Source: Neorhodopirellula pilleata (GTDB taxonomy: Bacteria > Planctomycetota > Planctomycetia > Pirellulales > Pirellulaceae). From it: a stretch of 64,000 bases of DNA. Below, one piece after another: positions 410-57,437 of the stretch. Position 1 is the first letter of the stretch. Every line of letters starts with the position of its first letter. The notes under the pieces were generated by a model. That model ran no database searches and had not been told where the DNA came from. It worked only from the letters and a program-made list of their open reading frames with translations. A program made the translations under genes and the position numbers. The stretch lies in the NCBI RefSeq assembly GCF_007859915.1, contig NZ_SJPM01000004.1, positions 244,881 to 308,880 on the forward strand. The letters are read 5' to 3'.

Positions 410-1417
410 ATGCAAACGCAGCGTCTGACCAAGATTCCCCGCTCCTTTGCTTTCTTCGCTTCACTGACAGCCCTTCTGCTGAGCTTTGCTCCGTTGACGA
501 TCATCACTGCGACGGTCGTCAATGCGGACACTCGGAAAGCCAAACCGATCGAAACGCCCGCTTACGCCGCCTCGGTACCGAAACCGACGATGAGCGAAGT
601 TCGCTACGGTGACCACGAGCGACACGTGATTGACTTTTGGAAAGCGGAATCGGATCGACCGACGCCGCTGGCGCTAGTCATCCACGGCGGCGGTTGGCAA
701 AGTGGAACCAAAGAGCGTGCCGGCAAATTCGTGGACATCCCTCGCTTGTTGTCGCAGGGCATCTCGGTCGCGGCGATCAATTATCGTTTGATCAGTCACG
801 CCAATGCCGAAGGCGTTCAACCGCCCGTCAAGGCACCGCTGCACGACGCCGCCCGGGCATTGCAGTTCATCCGCAGCCAAGCGACGGCGTGGAACATTGA
901 CAAGCAACGCATCAGCGCGTCAGGCGGATCGGCCGGCGCCTGTTCGAGCTTATGGCTCGCGTTTCACGACGACATGGCCGACCCTCAAAGCGATGACCCG
1001 GTCGCCCGCGAATCCACACGAGTTCAATGCGCCGCCGTGATCGGTGCTCAAACAACACTTGATCCGATGCAGATGAAACAATGGACTCCGAACAGTCGAT
1101 ATGGCGGGCACGCGTTCGGCATCACCGGCGGATTCAATCAGTTCATCGCCAAGCGAGATTCGATCAGCGAATGGATCGCCGAGTATTCACCTTACGCGCT
1201 GGTGACTTCCGATGATCCTCCGGTCTACCTTTCGTACTCAAGCCCGCCCGCGATCGGCAAAGACCAAAAAGACCCGACGCACACCTCCAATTTTGGCGTC
1301 AAATTGCAAGAACATTGCCGCGAAGCGGGTGTGACTTGCGAACTGGCTTACCCCGGTGCCCCCGACGTCGCGCACTCAAGCACCACGGACTTCTTGATCG
1401 AATTGCTACTTCCGTAA
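410..1417 (+). CDS. Secreted alpha/beta-hydrolase (esterase/lipase-like)
   Basis: Alpha/beta-hydrolase fold protein of the BD-FAE/hormone-sensitive-lipase-like group, predicted to hydrolyse ester bonds outside the cytoplasm. The oxyanion-hole motif HGGGW lies at about residues 92-96, the nucleophile elbow GGSAG has its Ser near residue 174, and a C-terminal His follows in DVAHSS. The frame opens at a GTG at 359, but ATG 410 is preferred: GAGG sits six bases upstream and the protein then begins with a good signal peptide (basic start, then a hydrophobic core through FFASLTALLLSFAPL). The mature enzyme would be about 300 residues, normal for the family. The substrate cannot be read from the sequence; acetyl-xylan or other sugar esters are possible. 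Confidence 0.85.
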   Translation: MQTQRLTKIPRSFAFFASLTALLLSFAPLTIITATVVNADTRKAKPIETPAYAASVPKPTMSEVRYGDHERHVIDFWKAESDRPTPLALVIHGGGWQSGTKERAGKFVDIPRLLSQGISVAAINYRLISHANAEGVQPPVKAPLHDAARALQFIRSQATAWNIDKQRISASGGSAGACSSLWLAFHDDMADPQSDDPVARESTRVQCAAVIGAQTTLDPMQMKQWTPNSRYGGHAFGITGGFNQFIAKRDSISEWIAEYSPYALVTSDDPPVYLSYSSPPAIGKDQKDPTHTSNFGVKLQEHCREAGVTCELAYPGAPDVAHSSTTDFLIELLLP

Positions 1418-1474
1418 TGGGGACTTTCAGTCGCTAGTGCTTCGTCATTATTTAAAATGAGGGTTGGCTTAAAA

Positions 1475-1525
1475 CGTGGCACGGTGGTCCCCACCGTGAA
1501 ACACGGCGGAGACCCCCGTGCCACG
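1475..1525. repeat. Inverted repeat CGTGGCACGG / CCGTGCCACG
   Basis: A 10-bp perfect inverted repeat (1475-1484 and 1516-1525) encloses a smaller CACGGTGG/CCACCGTG palindrome at about 1480-1498. It lies 57 bp after the esterase stop and has no T-run. It appears to be one of the dispersed intergenic palindromes of this genome rather than a terminator. Confidence 0.6.
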
Positions 1526-1580
1526 ATATGTCAACCCGAACTCAACGTTGGAACAAGACACTTGCGGGCTATAGGTTTAA

Positions 1581-1692
1581 TCGTAACCCGACGCGTCAGC
1601 GAGGGATTCCTTGTAGGCGGATAAAGGCGAAGTATCCCTCGCTGACGCATCGGGTTACGATTGAATCAATACGTCGTGTGACGCGTCGGGTT
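1581..1692. repeat. Long imperfect palindrome plus a partial third copy
   Basis: TCGTAACCCGACGCGTCAGC and the following GAGGGAT (1581-1607) pair with 1634-1660, with a single mismatch (C versus T). A shorter direct copy of the right arm (ACGCGTCGGGTT) follows at 1681-1692, ending 26 bp before the next ATG. The hairpin lies between two plus-strand genes and could end the esterase transcript or mark a small mobile repeat. Confidence 0.75.
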
Positions 1693-1718
1693 CTCTTAAC
1701 GAAACAAAGAGGAATGAC

Positions 1719-3134
1719 ATGCAACGAAACTGGCCTTTGCTTTTTCTGTTCTTGCTGTTTGACCCAGCCTTGGGTTCTGCGCAATCAAGCTCGCAGTGGC
1801 GTAACTTGGTTTCCGCTGTTTCCCCGTCTGACCATGCGATCGCGGGGGCTTGGTCCAAAACGGACGACACGCTTCGAACCGCCGCCGAGGCAAGCTCGCG
1901 TTTGGCGATACCGGGTGATGTTCCCCGCGAGTACGATCTTCGTGTGTCGTTCACTCGAGAGAGCGGTCAGCATTCGGTTGCCGTCTTTTTAACTTGCGGT
2001 AGCGGCCGGGCGTCATTCGAAGTCGATGCTTGGGCGCAGCACCTAGCGGGTTTTCAGGCCATTGCCGGGCAGGACTGTCGAAGCAATCCGACACGAGTGG
2101 AGAATCAGCATCTGCAAAACGGTCGACGATACGAACTCGAGCTTCGCGTACGCCGCCAAGGGGTGGCGGCATTCATTGATGGCGTCAACGTCGTCACCTA
2201 CCAAGGCGACGGCTCGGATCTGTCTCTCTTGCCGCTTTGGCAGCTACCATCGCAGTTTCAACTCGGAGTAGGTGCCTATCAATCTGCGGTGACGTTTCAT
2301 CGAATAGAACTTCGTGAAGCGTCGGGTGCGATGCCTTCTGCTTCGCCAGTCGCGATGGACCGATCCGCATCCGCAACCCCCAAGGCTGGTCAGGAGTCAC
2401 GATCGGTCGCAATGCCAAATGCATCTCAAGCTGCTCGCCGATCGACTGCGCAGCGTGGGCGAGTCCTGTTTGTGATCGCGGACAGACATTTTTTCTATCG
2501 AGAGTATGCCGAACCGCGAGAGGAGCTTGAGCGGGCCGGATTCAAGGTCGACGTCGCGGCTTGGAATCGAGCGTCCTGCTATCCTCACGAGAATTCGGGG
2601 CAAGGCAGTGATGGAGGCGAAGTTCGACCCGACGTCGCGCTAACGGACGTCGACCCGGAGCGATACGACGCGATCGTTTTTCCGGGAGGGTGGGGAGTCT
2701 CGATGTATCAATACGCTTTTGAAGGTCGATACAATCATCCCGAATACAACGGAGACGTTGGCAAGAAGCAAGCTGCGAATCACTTGATCAATTCGTTTGT
2801 CAAAAGCGACAAGTATGTATGCGGTATCTGCAACGGGGTATCCGTGTTGGCGTGGTCGCGTGTCAACGGAAAGAGCCTCTTGGCAGGAAAGCAATGCACC
2901 GCACCGACGCGTTCTGCTCCGCCGGGCGTCTACAACGGTAGACCCGGAAGTCCGTCGATTCGTTGGCACGTCGAGCAGAATCGTGGCCGTTTGGTCCCTG
3001 CCGGTTCGATCGGCAATCCTCAGTCGCGAGCCGACGACGTGGTCGTGGACGACAAAATCATCACGGCGGAGGACGATCAGTCCGCAAGAGAAGCGGGCCG
3101 ACAACTGGCGGAATTGCTAAGTCATCCTGAGTGA
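1719..3134 (+). CDS. Secreted DJ-1/PfpI-family protein with N-terminal beta-sandwich domain
   Basis: The signal peptide (MQRNWPLLFLFLLF, cleavage near GSAQS) is followed by a region at about 40-200 that looks like a concanavalin/DUF1080-like beta sandwich (RYELELRVRRQG, then a short IDGVNVV turn). A Ser/Ala-rich linker leads to a C-terminal DJ-1/PfpI domain at about 245-470. The domain starts RVLFVIADRHFF, carries the acidic nucleophile-elbow context CGICNGVSVLAW with the presumed catalytic Cys, and contains FPGGWG. Members of this superfamily act as peptidases, deglycases or amidotransferase-like proteins, so the reaction is undefined. Export plus a sandwich domain suggests it works on an extracellular polymer or protein. 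The ATG follows an AAAGAGG-type Shine-Dalgarno. Confidence 0.75.
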   Translation: MQRNWPLLFLFLLFDPALGSAQSSSQWRNLVSAVSPSDHAIAGAWSKTDDTLRTAAEASSRLAIPGDVPREYDLRVSFTRESGQHSVAVFLTCGSGRASFEVDAWAQHLAGFQAIAGQDCRSNPTRVENQHLQNGRRYELELRVRRQGVAAFIDGVNVVTYQGDGSDLSLLPLWQLPSQFQLGVGAYQSAVTFHRIELREASGAMPSASPVAMDRSASATPKAGQESRSVAMPNASQAARRSTAQRGRVLFVIADRHFFYREYAEPREELERAGFKVDVAAWNRASCYPHENSGQGSDGGEVRPDVALTDVDPERYDAIVFPGGWGVSMYQYAFEGRYNHPEYNGDVGKKQAANHLINSFVKSDKYVCGICNGVSVLAWSRVNGKSLLAGKQCTAPTRSAPPGVYNGRPGSPSIRWHVEQNRGRLVPAGSIGNPQSRADDVVVDDKIITAEDDQSAREAGRQLAELLSHPE

Positions 3135-30203: not shown

Positions 30204-30513
30204 GTAGGCTGGGTGAAGGAGGCTTTGCGACGCACACCCGGCGAGAGGCGAGAGGCGAGAGGCGAGAGGCGAGAGGCGAGAGGCGAGAGGCGAGAGGCGA
30301 GAGGCGAGAGGCGAGTGAAGAGTGAAGAGTGAAGAGTGAAGAGTGAAGAGTGAAGAGTGAAGAGTGAAGAGTGAAGAGTGAAGAGTTGCGAGGAACGGAC
30401 GGATCGGTCCGATTGTCAATCGCCCAACCAACAACCAACAACCAACAACCAACAACCAATAGCCAATAGCCAATAGCCTGCCGGGTCTCCGCTATCGCTG
30501 CGGCCCAGCCTAC
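30204..30513. repeat. BIME-like element filled with 7-bp tandem repeats (copy A)
   Basis: The ends are two inverted REP units, each starting with GTAG: GTAGGCTGGGTGAAGGAGGC at 30204 and, on the other strand, GTAGGCTGGGCCGCAGCGAT ending at 30513. Between them run ten full copies of GCGAGAG (30241-30310), ten of TGAAGAG (30316-30385), a unique stretch about 30386-30425, four of AACCAAC (30426-30453) and AATAGCC-type units to about 30477. All unit lengths are seven. The element lies upstream of the DUF485-symporter pair and downstream of msrB; any promoter for the pair must lie in it or in the 84 bp after it. Confidence 0.92.
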
Positions 30514-30543
30514 GCTGCGAACCAGGCTACTCTTTGACCCAGG

Positions 30544-31182
30544 CTACTCTGGCTTTTCGCTGGATGGTTTGATCATCGGTGGGATTTTTTTGCCCTTGGG
30601 GATGAACTTCATCGAGACAGAATTGACGCAGTGACGCGTGTTCTTCTCGGTCATTCGTTCGCCGTGAAAAACGTGTCCCAAGTGGCCGTCGCAATTGGCG
30701 CACAAAATCTCGATACGGTATCCGTCGGCGTCGGTTTGTCGGCGGACGGCTCCTTTGATCTCGTCATCGAAACTCGGCCAACCGCAATGACTCTCGAACT
30801 TGTCACCGCTGCGATACAACTTCGCGTTGCAACGACGACAGATGTAGGTGCCTTCTTTTTTGTTCTCGGTATAACCGCCCGTGCCAGCACGCTCGGTTCC
30901 CTTTTGTTCAATCACCCATCGTTCGAATTGGTTCAGCGGGTTGTACCGCCCGTAGGTGACCTTTTGCTCGGAGGCTTCGTCGGCGTCTTCCTTCGTCTCG
31001 TCGGCGTCGGAAACCGGTTCCGCCTCGGTCGATGGTTCGGTGCTTTCATCGACGGCGACTGTCTTCGTGGTCGTGTCTGCGTCGTCATCGGCTCGAACGG
31101 GCTGCTCGGACGCCTTGATCGCCAGAACGCTCAGCAATCCCAGCACGAGCAATCCCATCGAAAACCATGATTTGACCTTCAT
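30544..31182 (-). CDS. msrB: Peptide-methionine (R)-S-oxide reductase, exported form
   Basis: Reduces R-methionine sulfoxide in proteins. The catalytic Cys is in TRHCVNSVSM; the zinc site is CRRC and CANC; HCGWPSF and GHLGHVF are family blocks. The N-terminus is a signal peptide or membrane anchor (about 3-30), then an acidic Asp/Glu/Thr linker (about 33-75), so the enzyme acts outside the cytoplasm. The start is placed at ATG 31182, with GGAG nine bases upstream, instead of the TTG at 31197. Its 3' end abuts the tandem-repeat element. Confidence 0.93.
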   Translation of the reverse strand: MKVKSWFSMGLLVLGLLSVLAIKASEQPVRADDDADTTTKTVAVDESTEPSTEAEPVSDADETKEDADEASEQKVTYGRYNPLNQFERWVIEQKGTERAGTGGYTENKKEGTYICRRCNAKLYRSGDKFESHCGWPSFDDEIKGAVRRQTDADGYRIEILCANCDGHLGHVFHGERMTEKNTRHCVNSVSMKFIPKGKKIPPMIKPSSEKPE

Positions 31183-35082: not shown

Positions 35083-36510
35083 ATGCACGCTTCAGTAGTA
35101 GTTCTCGGCGGCGGCCCTGGTGGGTACGCTGCCGCTTTCTTGGCCGCCGACGAAGGTCTCGACGTGGCGATCGTCGAATCCGAACCGCGACTCGGGGGCA
35201 CGTGCTTGTTGCGCGGTTGTATCCCCAGCAAGGCGTTATTGCACGTCGCTAAAGTTATCGGCGAGGTCGAAGAACTCAGGCATGAGTGGGGAGTCGAATA
35301 TTCAGGCAAACCCTCGATCGATATCGACGCCGTTCGCGCCCGAAAAGACAAAGTCATCTCCAACCTGACCGGCGGCCTGGGCAACCTCGCCAAACGTCGG
35401 GGCGTGAAAGTGATCCAAGCTCGGGGCACGTTCGTCAGCTCCGGCGAACTGAAGCTCGAAGGCGATCACGAATCGATCCCCGAGGGCGGTTCGATTACGT
35501 TCGATCATTGCATCTTGGCGACAGGCAGCGTTCCTGCCATGCCACCGAGTTTTGACATCGGTAGCGACCGCGTGATGGACAGCACGGGAGCCTTGAATCT
35601 TAAGGACATTCCCGAATCACTACTCGTCATCGGTGGTGGCTACATCGGATTGGAAATGGGCACCGTTTATGCCCATTTAGGTTCCAAGGTCAGCGTTGTC
35701 GAACTCGCCGAAGGCTTGTTGCCCGGTGCCGACCGTGACTTGGTCAAACCGCTCGCCAAGAAGATGGAAGCGTTGTGCGAAGGTCGCATTTATTTGAACA
35801 CCAAGGTCGGTTCGATCGGCGAAGTCGATGACCAAGTCGAAGTCACGTTCGAAGGCCCAGGCAAATTCGGTCACGAGCGATTTGATCGGGTTTTGGTCAG
35901 CGTCGGTCGCCGTCCGGTCACCCGCGGTTTGGGTTTGGAAAACACCCAAGTCGTCGTCAATGATCGCGGATTTGTTGAGTGCGATAAGCAACAACGCACC
36001 GCCGATCCCAAAATTTTCGCAATCGGCGACGTTGCAGGCGATCCCATGTTGGCGCACAAAGCGACCCACGAGGGACGCGTAGCGGCGGAAGTCATCGCGG
36101 GCAAGGCGGTCGAGTTTGACAAGATCGCGATCCCAGCGGTCGTCTTCACCGATCCCGAAATCGCTTGGGCGGGGCTCACCGAAGAGGAAGCCAAACGAGA
36201 CGGACGCAACGTCAGCGTCGAAGTCTACCCGTGGGCGGCCAGCGGTCGGGCTCAAGCACTTAACATCACCAACGGTTTGACCAAGTGGTTGGTCGATCCG
36301 GAAACCAACCGCGTGGTCGGTTGCGGGATCGTCGGCAGTGGCGCGGGCGAATTGATCGCCGAGGCGGCTTTGGCAATCGAGATGGGTTGCGAGGTTACCG
36401 ACATTACCGAGACGGTTCACCCGCACCCGACGCTCAGCGAAACGTTGATGAACGCAGGCGAGGTCTACTTCGGTACGGCCACCGAGATTTACAAACCCAA
36501 AAAGAAGTAG
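35083..36510 (+). CDS. lpdA: Dihydrolipoyl dehydrogenase
   Basis: FAD-dependent E3 subunit of the 2-oxoacid dehydrogenase and glycine cleavage complexes. FAD-binding VVVLGGGPGGYAAAFL at the N-terminus, the redox disulfide in GGTCLLRGCIPSK (Cys41 and Cys46), NAD-binding LVIGGGYIGLEMGTVYAHLG, and the C-terminal catalytic His-Glu in ETVHPHPTLSE. 475 residues, standard. No E1 or E2 genes are nearby. The last codons are Lys-Lys-TAG, and that TAG is part of the GTAG tetranucleotide of the first REP unit of the adjoining array, so the repeat reaches into the gene. Confidence 0.96.
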   Translation: MHASVVVLGGGPGGYAAAFLAADEGLDVAIVESEPRLGGTCLLRGCIPSKALLHVAKVIGEVEELRHEWGVEYSGKPSIDIDAVRARKDKVISNLTGGLGNLAKRRGVKVIQARGTFVSSGELKLEGDHESIPEGGSITFDHCILATGSVPAMPPSFDIGSDRVMDSTGALNLKDIPESLLVIGGGYIGLEMGTVYAHLGSKVSVVELAEGLLPGADRDLVKPLAKKMEALCEGRIYLNTKVGSIGEVDDQVEVTFEGPGKFGHERFDRVLVSVGRRPVTRGLGLENTQVVVNDRGFVECDKQQRTADPKIFAIGDVAGDPMLAHKATHEGRVAAEVIAGKAVEFDKIAIPAVVFTDPEIAWAGLTEEEAKRDGRNVSVEVYPWAASGRAQALNITNGLTKWLVDPETNRVVGCGIVGSGAGELIAEAALAIEMGCEVTDITETVHPHPTLSETLMNAGEVYFGTATEIYKPKKK

Positions 36511-36795
36511 GCTGGGTCGCAGCGATAGCGGAGACCCGGCATGGCGTTGGGCGAACCGATTTGATTGGTGGTTCCTGCCGGGTGTTCGTCGCAGAGCCTC
36601 CTCCACCCAGCCTACGTCGGTCGCGAAGTAGGCTGGGTCGCAGCGATAGCGGAGACCCGGCATGGCGTTGGGCAAACCGAGTTGATTGGTGGTTCCTGCC
36701 GGGTGTTCGTCGCAAAGCCTCCTCCACCCAGCCTACGGCGGTCGCAAAGTAGGCTGGGTCGCAGCCGCTTCGGCGGAGACCCGGCATCCCTGCTA
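36507..36795. repeat. REP/BIME array, left part (three units)
   Basis: Type A REP units begin with GTAGGCTGGGTCGCAGCGAT at 36507 and 36628, with a diverged copy at 36749 (GCAGCCGCTTCGGC core). The first two are paired with an inverted type B REP (on the minus strand GTAGGCTGGGTGGAGGAGGC), giving a 121-bp period. Each REP can fold into a hairpin just after the GTAG, as in RAYT-linked REPs. The third unit runs into the 3' end of the transposase gene at 36796. Open frames through this block encode only translated repeat. Confidence 0.93.
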
Positions 36796-37356
36796 TCAAG
36801 GTTCGCCCCAACTAGGTTTCGTAGACTTCAGGCTCTCAGGGCATTCCCCGCCCCAATGCAATTCGTAATGGCCTTCGCGAACAAATCGATGGAACGAAGA
36901 CCAAGGGTAATCAACGACTCGTTTTACAAGTTCATGCTTTCGCGGGTTCCAATGAATGTAGTCCGCACAACGATGGAGGTCGTCTTCGTCTTGAACGGTA
37001 TGTTCCCAAAACCTCGGTTGCCAGATTCCGTGCTGATTCTTTTTTCGTTCGGCTTCGGTAACCTCGACTTCCGAATACCCTGCCTCCAACCATCGTCGCG
37101 TGAACCCCGATTTGATTCGTTGGATTCGCATGGAATAGCGGAAGTCACCGGTGGGAAGCGACATCATGAGATGAAAGTGATCCGGTAATAGCACCGCCGC
37201 AACCAGCTTAAAACGATGAGGCCGCCAAACATCCAGGATCGACTCTCGAAGAAGATCACGTCCCTCGTCGGTAGTGAGTATCGGCTGGCGTTGGTATGTC
37301 ACCAGTGTAAGAAAATAAGTTCCGCCCGGCACGAACCAACGCCGATAGTCCGACAT
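36796..37356 (-). CDS. REP-associated tyrosine transposase (RAYT, TnpA-REP)
   Basis: Y1-HUH single-strand transposase of the IS200/RAYT group, which cuts and joins REP sequences. The HUH pair is His60 and His62 in LLPDHFHLMM, the catalytic Tyr is Tyr133 in CADYIHWNP (equivalent to Tyr115 of the E. coli protein), and WQPRFWEH at 112-119 is a RAYT signature. The N-terminal SDYRRWFVPGGTYFLTL also matches. Start ATG 37356 has AGGAG six bases upstream; the longer frame to 37428 is REP sequence. It is flanked by diverged REP units (36749 and 37390) and lies inside its probable substrates. All catalytic residues are present, so it may be active. Confidence 0.93.
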   Translation of the reverse strand: MSDYRRWFVPGGTYFLTLVTYQRQPILTTDEGRDLLRESILDVWRPHRFKLVAAVLLPDHFHLMMSLPTGDFRYSMRIQRIKSGFTRRWLEAGYSEVEVTEAERKKNQHGIWQPRFWEHTVQDEDDLHRCADYIHWNPRKHELVKRVVDYPWSSFHRFVREGHYELHWGGECPESLKSTKPSWGEP

Positions 37357-37389
37357 GGCGAACTCCTGGTTTAGGTAGTATGGATTCAA

Positions 37390-38468
37390 GTAGGCTGGGT
37401 CGAAGCCGCTTCGGCGCAGACCCGGCATGTGAATGAATGAACAAGCTTACCCCAGACCCTCCGCCGGGTGTTCGTCGCAGAGCCTCCTCCACCCAGCCTA
37501 CATCGGTCACCAAGTAGGCTGGGTCGCAGCGATAGCGGAGACCCGGCACGGTGTTGGGCGAACCAATTTGATTGGCGGGTCCTGCCGGGTGTTCGTCGCA
37601 GAGCCTCCTCGACCCAGCCTACGTCGGTCGCAAAGTATGCTGGGTCGCAGCGATAGCGGAGACCCGGCATGGCATTGGGCAAACCGAGTTGATTGGTGGT
37701 TCCTGCCGGGTGTTCGTCGCAAAGCCTCCTCCACCCAGCCTACGTGGGACGCGAAGTAGGCTGGGTCGCAGTGATAGCGGAGACCCGGCATGGCATTGGG
37801 CAAACCGAGTTGATTGGTGGTTCCTGCCGAGTGTTCGTCGCAGAGCCTCCTCCACCCAACCTACGTCGGTCGCGAAGTAGGCTGGGTCGCAGCGATAGCG
37901 GAGACCCGGCATGGCGTTGGGCAAACCGAGTTGATTGGTGGTTCCTGCCGGGTGTTCGTCGCAGAGCCTCCTCCACCCAGCCTACGTCGGTCGCCAAGTA
38001 GGCTGGGTCGCAGCGATAGCGGAGACCCGGCATGGGTTGGGCGAACCAAGTTGATTGGTGAGTCCTGCCGGGTGTTCGTCGCAAAGCCTCCTCCACCCAG
38101 CCTACGTCGGTCGGCAAGTAGGCTGGGTCGCAGCGATAGCGGAGACCCGGCATGGCGTTGGGTGAACCGATTTGATTGGTGGTTCCTGCCGGGTGTTCGT
38201 CGCAGAGCCTCCTCCACCCAGCCTACGTCGGTCGCAAAGTAGGCTGGGTCGCAGCGATAGCGGAGACCCGGCATGGCGTTGGGCAAACCAAGTTGATTGG
38301 TGGCTCCTGCCGGGTGTTCGTCGCAAAGCCTCCTCCACCCAGCCTACATCGGTCACCAAGTAGGCTGGGTCGCAGCGATAGCGGAGACCCGGCATGGCGT
38401 TGGGCGAACCAAGTTGATTGGTGAGTCCTGCCGGGTGTTCGTCGCAGAGCCTCCTCCACCCAGCCTAC
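37390..38468. repeat. REP/BIME array, right part (nine units)
   Basis: Type A REP starts lie at 37390, 37514, 37635, 37756, 37877, 37998, 38118, 38239 and 38360. The intervals are 124, then 121, 121, 121, 121, 120, 121 and 121 bp. Each is followed by a short spacer containing TTGATTGG and an inverted type B REP ending CCCAGCCTAC. The unit at 37635 has GTAT instead of GTAG, and the one at 37390 has the diverged CCGCTTCGGC core. The last CTAC ends at 38468, three bases before the stop codon of the minus-strand gene at 38472, so the array fills the whole convergent gap. No credible gene lies in it. Confidence 0.95.
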
Positions 38469-38471
38469 GGG

Positions 38472-39581
38472 TTAATCGATTAGGTTTTGGGGCTTGCCTG
38501 GCTTGGGCGGCTCCTTCGGTTGTGGCGGTCCCAGTTCGATGTCTCCGGGGACCCAACTGGTGTATTCCCAATTGTCCGCGACGGCTTCCCATCCGGCTAG
38601 TAACCCCATCTCGCTGCAAACCCGTCGCGCCGTCACGTAGACTCCGAAACTGTCCGGGGCCACAAAGAAGCGTGCGTAGGCCTTCGTCGGATCGATCGTC
38701 GTCATCGCCTTGCGAAACTGCGAACGTGGGTTCTTGAGTTCTTCGTCTGTGGCACCTTTGCCTTCGAGCGGAATGAACTTCAAACGTAAATAGCGATTTC
38801 CAGCGATGAAGTACTCGACGTTGAAATATCGATCGCTGTCATCGAGCCGTTCCCACTTTTCACCGAATGCTTTCGGATCGATGCCCGCTTCAGGATCTCG
38901 GTCCAGTTTAAAACGGGCGATCAATTGACGGGCCTTCGCTTCGGCCCGTTCTCGAAATGGGTCGGAGAGAATCGGGTAGACCTGGTCGTTCTTACAAAAG
39001 AAAATCAACTGCTTTGCACCCGGCGGTGGCGGGCGTGGGTTCGGGATACTGACCTCGATGTCAGCCGGCGCTTCGGTCTTAGGGGTCCGCGCCAACCTTG
39101 CTTTCAATTCGGCGCGACGTTCCAACGAACTCTCCACGACCGCTTTGAGTTCTTCTCGTTTCGCCTCGGTGTCCTCGATCTCTTTCTTTCTTTTTTCCGC
39201 CATCTCGCGGTCCTGTTGGATCTTGATGGCGAACTCGTTCTTCTGTTTCTCTTTTTCTTCGAGTAGCTTGCGTCGTCGTTCGAGCAGCTCTTTTTTTCGC
39301 TCCAGTTCAGCGAGTTGTTTCTCGGCGTCGATTGAAAGCGGATCGACGAGCACACTTTCGAGGTCTTCCTTTTCCTCTTCTTTTTCGGCGAGTTGTTTTT
39401 TCAATTCGGCAAGCGTTTCGGCATCCACGGTGCTTTCGGTCGTGATGCGGGCGACGACTTCCGCCACGCTCATTTGCGTGACGATTAGAATCAGCACCAA
39501 GATGCCGACGACATTCGTCATTGTATCAAGCAGTGAGTCGAGGCCGCCGTCATCATCGTCGTCAGGTTTGCGTCGAGCCAT
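38472..39581 (-). CDS. Coiled-coil membrane protein, third gene of a proton-channel operon
   Basis: After a charged start (MARRKPDDDDDGGLDSLLDT) comes one membrane helix (about 23-40, MTNVVGILVLILIVTQM), a long Glu/Lys coiled coil (about 55-165), and a globular C-terminal half (about 185-345) that I do not recognise. The layout with a conserved Asp before the single helix resembles ExbD/TolR/MotB proteins. It is 5 bp downstream of a gene with the same plan and shares the operon with a MotA/TolQ/ExbB homologue. A C-terminal Pro-rich tail ends the protein. Confidence 0.7.
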   Translation of the reverse strand: MARRKPDDDDDGGLDSLLDTMTNVVGILVLILIVTQMSVAEVVARITTESTVDAETLAELKKQLAEKEEEKEDLESVLVDPLSIDAEKQLAELERKKELLERRRKLLEEKEKQKNEFAIKIQQDREMAEKRKKEIEDTEAKREELKAVVESSLERRAELKARLARTPKTEAPADIEVSIPNPRPPPPGAKQLIFFCKNDQVYPILSDPFRERAEAKARQLIARFKLDRDPEAGIDPKAFGEKWERLDDSDRYFNVEYFIAGNRYLRLKFIPLEGKGATDEELKNPRSQFRKAMTTIDPTKAYARFFVAPDSFGVYVTARRVCSEMGLLAGWEAVADNWEYTSWVPGDIELGPPQPKEPPKPGKPQNLID

Positions 39582-57120: not shown

Positions 57121-57437
57121 GTAGGCTGGGTCGCAGCGATAGCGAAGACCCGGCAGGCTATTGGCTATTGGCTATTGGCTATTGGCTATTGGCTATTGGC
57201 TATTGGCTATTGGCTATTGGTTGTTGGCTATTGGTTGTTGGTTGTTGGTTGTTGGTTGTTGGTTGTTGGTTGTTGGTTGTTGGTTGTTGGTTGGGCGATA
57301 CACGATCGGACCGATCCGTCAGTTCCTCGCAACTCTTCACTCTTCACTCTTCACTCGCCACTCGCCACTCGCCACTCGCTTCTCGCTTCTCGCTTCTCGC
57401 CGGGTGTTCGTCGCCGAGCCTCCTCCACCCAGCCTAC
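57121..57437. repeat. BIME-like element filled with 7-bp tandem repeats (copy B)
   Basis: A type A REP end (GTAGGCTGGGTCGCAGCGAT at 57121) and an inverted type B REP end (CCCAGCCTAC ending 57437) enclose heptads in one phase: nine GGCTATT from 57156, nine GGTTGTT (57219-57288, interrupted by one GGCTATT), a unique stretch near 57289-57332, three CTCTTCA, three CTCGCCA and three CTCGCTT up to 57395. The unique middle (GATCGGACCGATCCGT) is shared with the 30.2 kb element read on the other strand. It lies between queD and thrC. From 57438 to 57624 I see only the thrC leader. Confidence 0.93.

Follow-up and report, generated by a model that had tools for sequence, protein, structure and literature searches.

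A RAYT gene within a tandem REPIN array of Neorhodopirellula pilleata and what its linkers suggest about array formation

In a 64,000-nucleotide stretch of the Neorhodopirellula pilleata genome (the window; contig NZ_SJPM01000004.1, positions 244,881 to 308,880), the gap between lpd and a convergent gene is filled by a dense array of short inverted repeats in which a RAYT gene is embedded. This locus raises the question of how the gene relates to the repeats that surround it, and how so regular an array could have arisen. Judged by its sequence, the locus is a REPtron and represents a new instance of an already known system, in which a single-copy RAYT very probably lies within its own REPINs and spreads them, the arrays being then duplicated in tandem and homogenised. 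The first-pass annotation had presented a RAYT-REP pair in a planctomycete as a novelty, a claim that falls with the precedent of R. baltica, in which Di Nocera et al. (2013, PMC3733652) had described several families of REPs together with a "plethora" of repeat-flanked tyrosine transposases.

Layout of the array, its gene and its flanks

The array (36507-38468) comprises 12 type A and 11 type B REPs and is interrupted by the RAYT gene (Table 1), a REPIN consisting of a REP A and an inverted REP B with GTAG on the outer sides. Type A REPs follow each other at intervals of 121 bp, except for 641 bp across the RAYT gene, 124 bp once and 120 bp once, and the earlier count of 12 A and 11 B units with a period of 120-121 bp (124 once) proved near-exact to the base. 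The two blocks of the array score 492 and 1720 in Tandem Repeats Finder (93% match), and units located across the RAYT gene from each other are as few as one base apart. A higher-order period of four units (483 bp) was considered and rejected, as the unit distances have no minimum at lag 4. Automatic REP typing called one type B REP of the window A1 and cut another short. The 36-nt spacers of the window REPINs are near-identical, a feature in which they are unlike CRISPR spacers.

Single-stranded DNA folding, performed on one copy per type plus both A2 copies, predicts GTAG followed by an 8-bp stem for type A (z -3.2, one copy) and for type B (z -1.6, weak alone, one copy), while a whole A-B pair folds as one long hairpin (z -3.96, one pair). 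The position of GTAG at the 5' foot of the hairpin is that of GTAG REPs and REPINs, and the tandem alternation of REPs would place the array with BIME-2. GTAG is present in 11 of the 12 type A heads; the head at 37635 is the one exception to the earlier statement that every REP begins with GTAG followed by a hairpin.

Table 1. Features of the window; each REPIN starts with its type A REP and ends with its type B REP unless the order B...A1 is given.
Feature	Coordinates	Strand	Remarks
lpd (dihydrolipoyl dehydrogenase)	35083..36510	+	TAG stop within first GTAG
REPIN 1 (A1-36-B)	36507..36615	+	GTAG contains lpd stop codon
REPIN 2 (A1-B)	36628..36736	+	1 difference vs unit at 37877 beyond RAYT
Unpaired type A2 REP, loop CCGCTTCGGCGG	36749..36785	+	ends 10 bp from RAYT stop codon
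RAYT/TnpAREP gene, 186 aa	36796..37356	-	ATG at 37356, AGGAG at 37363-37367
REPIN with A2, divergent spacer	37390..37501	+	32-36 differences vs others; upstream of RAYT
REPIN (A1-B)	37514..37622	+	B head is a TC variant
REPIN (A1-B)	37635..37743	+	GTAT replaces GTAG
REPIN (A1-B)	37756..37864	+	
REPIN (A1-B)	37877..37985	+	
REPIN (A1-B), 108 nt	37998..38105	+	
REPIN (A1-B)	38118..38226	+	1 difference vs REPIN 1
REPIN (A1-B)	38239..38347	+	following linker ATCGGTCACCAA found also at C3:545733
Last REPIN (A1-B)	38360..38468	+	ends 3 bp before stop of convergent gene
Convergent downstream gene, 369 aa	38472..39581	-	
Further REPIN (A1...B), same family	57121..57437	+	7-bp tandem repeats fill spacer
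Further pair (B...A1), same family	30204..30513	+	7-bp tandem repeats fill spacer; far head with one mismatch

The protein encoded within the array matches NCBIfam model NF047646 for REP-type Y1 (one-tyrosine) HUH transposases at 173.2 bits (cut-off 80), and its closest solved relative is E. coli TnpAREP (PDB 4er8, 7e-32). Its HUH motif is H60-F-H62 and Tyr133 aligns with Y115 of 4er8, confirming the earlier claim that HUH and Tyr are intact, while H60, H62, Y133 and N137 are invariant across five congeneric RAYTs. The start codon was picked by eye and by alignment with 4er8. The gene is single-copy: of the genome's 23 NCBIfam matches, a single one lies above the cut-off, and the other seven matches of an own-genome protein search are approximately 29% identical over 70 residues.

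The lpd stop codon (36508-36510) falls inside the first GTAG of the array, whose far end stops just short of the stop codon of the convergent gene (38472-38474); the proposed placement between two convergent stops was thereby upheld and refined. While lpd was located in 13 of 13 genomes, the C-terminus pattern was read in six of the 13 rows, this genome included, and in the five congeners read lpd ends 1-4 residues later. Among gene ends that face a REP block, 14 of 86 terminate exactly on the TAG of that block. Stop-codon donation was set aside as a novelty, since the provision of TAG stop codons by REPs to neighbouring genes had already been stated by Di Nocera et al. (2013, PMC3733652). No Pfam or NCBIfam family matches the convergent gene at E<=0.001. 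In the five congeners read, the gene was not found in the 1.5 kb that follow lpd, as a result of which no empty site was obtained.

The REP family in this genome and in the genus

The REP family and its array are not a product of chance, as the head GTAGGCTGGGTC occurs in 216 copies in the 8.5 Mb genome against two for the reversed control, and CTAC-linker-GTAG junctions occur at 35 places against none. A sample of 90 loci with 266 REP calls, drawn from the first 100 A heads listed and the best DNA matches, was assigned a gene context with a rough ORF caller: 36 loci were co-directional, 25 convergent, six divergent, 14 overlapping an ORF and nine undecided. The REPs are of high copy number and, in this sample, dispersed and mostly intergenic, as GTAG REPs and REPINs are, and many of the sampled loci are A-B pairs that end sharply at GTAG and whose flanks are unlike. 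Repeats of 5-8 bp account for 31% of the bases in long REPIN spacers compared to 0.3% farther away. An A-rich stretch precedes the outer GTAG (50-59% A at -3 to -1, 143 sites) and persists when stop-codon cases are removed (130 sites), while no excess of CT or CA beside the outer GTAG was separable by eye, without a formal test, from local composition. Immediately past the hairpin foot, 86% of 187 sites have an A, which would fit, as a hint only, the cutting between C and A reported for a Marinomonas enzyme (PMC8266576).

In each of 12 congeners GTAGGCTGGGTC is present in 0-3 copies. A RAYT, complete or broken, is present in five congeners; in each it is flanked by GTAG hairpins that differ in sequence from those described here and occur as repeated pairs. 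REP type tracks RAYT type across species. The type GTAGGCCAKGTNNNACMTGGC of R. europaea 6C (G004) and its neighbours has no copies in this genome. The proposition that REPs occur only with their RAYT was accordingly sustained in one respect, the exact head being frequent only here among 13 genomes, but not in another, as local REPs persist without a RAYT: G003 and G012 contain 135 and 77 copies of the local REP type and no RAYT match. REPs can therefore outlive the RAYT, and their presence alone is no proof of current mobilisation.

The RAYT occupies four different loci among six genomes of the genus. It lies near the DnaB locus in G004, G005 and G007; there, G012 has kept a gap of 151 nt that contains one REP, G003 has kept the array with a different gene in it, and no DnaB end was found in G006. 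Different loci need not signify movement within the genus, since its RAYTs are split among different clades of a tree of 73 rows. This tree leaves out 11 of 80 loci (broken or short), L130, which shares its contig with G004, and the G005 gene, which is broken. The genus offers a natural series in which REP type shifts with RAYT type: some members have the gene, some a broken form and some none, and REPs persist without it.

Array formation and competing explanations

In the mechanism that we favour, the RAYT would recognise a folded single-stranded REP by its GTAG and hairpin, bind it, cut beside it and rejoin, by which REPINs would spread; arrays would then lengthen by tandem duplication of a REPIN with some of its flank, and recombination would homogenise their units. 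The RAYT gene is probably kept near fresh REPIN copies rather than being mobile like an ordinary insertion sequence. The linkers bear on the duplication step. In several arrays of the genome other than that of the window, linkers copy flanking DNA, as would be expected from tandem duplication in place. At C1:352 kb, six 30-nt linkers consist of 25 nt of right flank and 5 nt of left flank (one exactly, four differing at one position and one at two). The earlier suggestion of amplification after insertion is supported at C1:352 kb but not shown for the window array, where the linker GTCGGTCGCNAA matches neither outer flank past 3 bases.

Linkers are similar inside one array and mostly different between arrays, and two to three linker-bearing segments reappear at a second locus. 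The window and C3:545733 share 87 nt (98.9%), a segment with hairpin feet at its limits when placed on the units of the window; the loci C1:241 kb and C2:853 kb have a 25-nt linker in common, and their homology breaks off on either side precisely at the outer GTAG, beyond which the flanks are unlike (by eye); and C17:59 kb matches C29:16.9 kb at 98.6% over 147 nt, with a linker of only 5 nt. An array shared by C2:904966 and C27:16 (97%, nearly the same linker) was left uncounted, as the C27 copy begins partway through it, at the edge of its contig. Colinearity is lacking between the two arrays of four units, with mean differences of 16.0 and 13.3 within a locus and 19.9 between loci, and this greater likeness within loci suggests that a single unit, together with its linker, may have moved and then been re-amplified.

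These recurring segments, the RAYT at several loci of the genus, and a window array that ends exactly at GTAG and CTAC with a linker unlike its flanks would all suit an array that was formed elsewhere and reached the lpd gap as a multi-unit segment, possibly carrying the RAYT; we consider this rather doubtful, given the lack of colinearity just described, the different clades of the RAYTs and the fact that no empty site was found among the five congeners read at lpd. Unlikely to a slightly greater degree is the broader notion that REPIN arrays are themselves mobile, in that linker-marked multi-REP segments, with GTAG or a hairpin foot at their limits, would move and re-amplify; the 1.96-kb block of the window, RAYT included, would be one such traveller. 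REPtrons are held not to transpose as a unit (PMC6006769), and if arrays were mobile a REPtron could, contrary to that view, relocate. Captured linkers could serve as tags for tracing which segments move, which identical REPs cannot reveal.

A passive RAYT within a minisatellite generated by replication slippage at hairpins appears improbable. The retention of REPs in congeners after RAYT loss would agree with it, as would the 5-8 bp repeats that crowd the same places and point to slippage-prone DNA, whereas the dispersal of the same REP as sharp-ended A-B pairs among unlike flanks (90 sampled loci) and the species-to-species correspondence of REP and RAYT type argue against it. The HUH-Tyr superfamily is also common to this locus and to classical IS200/IS605 insertion sequences; that the locus is such an element with degenerate copies is scarcely credible, as the protein reaches 21.7 bits on the IS200 model against a cut-off of 55 while being far above the RAYT cut-off, and the genome holds a single copy rather than several near-identical copies of gene and ends.

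Relation to known RAYT-REP systems

RAYTs with repeated GTAG hairpins are common: two or more GTAG hairpins sharing one head lie beside the gene at 60 of 80 relatives' loci, compared with none of the 80 in any of 10 shuffles. By the same test repeated hairpins are absent at 20 of the 80 loci, some of which are cut by contig ends; planctomycete titles, by our count, are attached to 49 of the 80. R. baltica has in common with this genome the genus, REPs tagged by GTAG, the presence of several REP families and their transposases, pairing that leaves GTAG on the outside and the donation of TAG stops to neighbouring genes, as described in PMC3733652. With the E. coli REPtron and BIME-2 the locus shares the RAYT family, HUH, the Tyr115 equivalent, GTAG with an imperfect hairpin and alternating tandem REPs, and differs in hairpin sequences and spacers.

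Tandem REPIN clusters adjoining RAYTs have been known since 2011, when Bertels and Rainey (PMC3116915) described, beside each RAYT of Pseudomonas fluorescens SBW25, a cluster of near-identical REPINs repeated in tandem along with their flanking sequence. The window array resembles these in its near-identical tandem REPINs adjoining a RAYT, but holds eleven REPINs and one unpaired REP, compared to four REPINs and one REP in the largest cluster reported there, and flanks the RAYT on both sides. It is a large, clear example that preserves useful traces of array formation, and this genome adds linkers copied from flanks, recurring linker segments and an lpd that ends on the TAG of a REP.

Two RAYT relatives in Rubripirellula obstinata (L124 and L128, 62% and 61% identity) adjoin tandem arrays of 225 bp x 6.0 and 110 bp x 6.0, respectively. 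Their REP heads are their own (GTAGGCCGTA and GTAGGCCGGA), and that one genome contains two or more RAYTs.

The array and its RAYT gene

Re-examination of the REP array, composed of GTAG hairpin units of type A and inverted type B, showed that the first-pass annotation had described a real structure correctly in unit numbers, position and spacing. The units are 121 bp apart on both sides of the RAYT gene, except for one step of 120 bp and one of 124 bp, and the A heads bracketing the gene are separated by 641 bp. The encoded protein scored 173 bits against the REP-associated tyrosine transposase model NF047646 (cut-off 80) and matched the IS200 model only under that model's cut-off. Its sole PDB match at E 0.001 was 4er8, the TnpAREP of E. 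coli (E 6.9e-32), with whose Tyr115 its Tyr133 is aligned, while H60/H62 form the HUH pair. The source genome gave 23 matches to the RAYT model, of which one was above the cut-off. The system is a well-preserved REPtron (a RAYT with its own REPs) bearing a long, regular array of REPINs (A-B pairs), of a kind already known; no description of this particular array was found in the open-licence papers searched.

Features located in the window and in a congener
Feature	Position	Strand	Remark
REP array, 12 type A and 11 inverted type B units	36507-38468		both sides of the minus-strand gene
RAYT gene, 186 aa	start ATG 37356	minus	AGGAG, Shine-Dalgarno-like
Response-regulator-like gene	L300 (G003:C1:892800-896600), 870-2162		between REP arrays, DnaB locus

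Linkers and array growth

REP annotation of 90 sampled loci of the source genome (266 REP calls) yielded many A-B pairs whose outer ends bear GTAG and whose spacers run from 11 to about 300 nt, besides some A-A pairs or singles. At least two CTAC-linker-GTAG junctions were present in 11 of the 90 loci, and the array period differs by locus (106, 121, 122, 149, 162, 169, 236 and about 270-285 bp). Across 35 junctions, linkers were near-constant inside one array and mostly unlike between arrays.

The first-pass annotation had proposed tandem amplification following REP insertion, a proposal supported at three loci of the source genome but not by the window linker, which matches neither of its own flanks (0-3 nt). 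At C1:352 kb, a 30-nt linker consists of 25 nt of right flank and 5 nt of left flank, six linkers matching the flanks at 28, 29 or 30 of 30 positions; the linkers at C29:25 kb and C10:208 kb are identical to the right flank at 34-35 of 40 and 114-115 of 124 bases, respectively. These three alignments show the traces expected when a REPIN is duplicated in tandem together with flank sequence. The C2:904966 linker matches by 8 nt at each end, leaving 22 nt without explanation, that at C38:4.7 kb matches by 7 nt and 2 nt only, and those at C1:241 kb, C2:853 kb and C17:59 kb have no match to their own flanks.

Simple block movement of multi-unit segments might also account for such arrays, as linker-sharing segments do occur at second loci. 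The window linker ATCGGTCACCAA recurs at C3:545733 within an 87-nt segment (98.9%) whose edges are hairpin feet, and the four-unit arrays at C1:241 kb and C2:853 kb have one 25-nt linker in common and 86% identity over 1126 nt, their homology stopping exactly at the outer GTAGs; an ATTAG linker common to C17:59 kb and C29:16.9 kb is weaker evidence, being a 5-nt match. In the C1:241 kb and C2:853 kb arrays, however, the unit order is not colinear and units are closer within a locus than between loci. Taken with the flank-derived and the recurring linkers, this pattern speaks for arrays amplified in place, from which segments carrying a linker have occasionally moved; movement of the whole REPtron as a block appears improbable.

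REP heads or fragments also stand in tandem, 14-17 bp apart, at 30498-30551 of the window and at two further loci, L209 (C4:387968) and L235 (C2:112981), a pattern that repeated copying of the 5' part of one REP would give.

Pairing of REPs with RAYT genes

A genome search for the REP, suggested in the first-pass annotation, returned 216 copies of GTAGGCTGGGTC in the source genome (8.5 Mb, 73 contigs; reversed control, 2) and 0 to 3 in each of 12 congeners, which is control level (0 to 4). A full RAYT gene was found in five of the 13 genus genomes (the source genome, G002, G004, G006 and G007) and a frame-broken one in G005; in five more the matches were weak at most (about 26-29% identity, best E of the 1e-4 to 1e-8 class) or, for G001, G003 and G012, absent. 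GTAG hairpins flank the gene in all six genomes with a full or broken copy: GCTGGGTC in the source genome, GCCAGG or GCCATG in G002, G004 and G007, GGGCCGG in G006 and GTCAGG in G005. The frame-shifted gene of G005 (L304, G005:C14:143500-147500) still has its own REPs on its flanks.

The proposition that REPs occur only in RAYT-bearing genomes holds for GTAGGCTGGGTC among these 13 genomes but fails for the GCCA(G/T)G type. The latter numbers 72 copies in G002, 87 in G004, 121 in G007 and 17 in G005, with none in the source genome or G006, but is abundant in G003 (135) and G012 (77), neither of which has a RAYT match. RAYT lies near the DnaB locus in G004, G005 and G007; this locus in G012 is a 151-nt gap with one REP only, and in G003 it has an array enclosing a gene of 430 aa, identified by eye as response-regulator-like. 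From these copy numbers and loci it follows that REPs can outlive the RAYT gene. The closest relative of the G003 gene in other genus genomes has 55% identity and is on a different contig, in G005; best matches in G004, G007 and G012 are 25-27%.

In a tree of 73 RAYTs, that of the source genome belongs to a supported set of 13 rows (100/93) which does not include those of G002, G004, G007 and G006. REP heads of the form GTAGGCYGKA occur near the gene in 10 of the other 12 rows, and no such head was found near the gene in the remaining two. For the best 80 of 104 relatives from a named-genome scan, 60 loci had two or more GTAG hairpins sharing a head no farther than 1.5 kb from the gene (none of the 80 in each of 10 shuffles), and 12 had a tandem array with a period of at least 60.

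Gene ends and short repeats beside REPs

The stop codon of lpd, the plus-strand dihydrolipoyl dehydrogenase gene, is part of the first GTAG of the window array. Its product ends in KPKKK, and because those of five congeners extend further (KPKKKS, KPKKKAKA and, three times, KPKKKAASA), REP insertion may have trimmed or replaced its last 1-4 residues. The stop was exactly the REP TAG at 14 of 86 gene ends facing a REP block (rough ORF caller); Di Nocera 2013 (PMC3733652) already reports TAG stops as a frequent contribution of GTAG REPs. None of three such proteins compared with PDB chains was clearly truncated. DAHP synthase and MsrB are complete to the C-terminal end of their relatives. Pantothenate kinase has a tail as long as in some chains (20 vs 20, 9 vs 10 residues) and a shorter one than the best chain (5 vs 21).

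Tandem repeats of 5-8 bp make up 31.4% of the 4947 bp in REPIN spacers of at least 60 nt at the 90 loci, against 3.6% in shorter spacers, 9.0% on the foot side and 3.5% on the GTAG side of unpaired REPs, and 0.3% more than 150 bp away; these loci are not independent, since several are copies of one another. No description of 6-7 bp repeats inside REPIN spacers was found in the open-licence papers searched. Window examples of repeat-crowded long spacers are 30204-30513 and 57121-57437. In a separate check, the first 100 of 235 CTCTTCA matches were grouped by eye into 20 arrays; 10 of these had a REP no more than 100 bp away, and the other 10 had none near. At least five loci (L056, L067, L249, L257 and L260) carry copies of a composite element, about 90-160 bp at 90-97% identity, in which a CTCTTCA array is combined with one A-type REP; it is probably a separate dispersed element.
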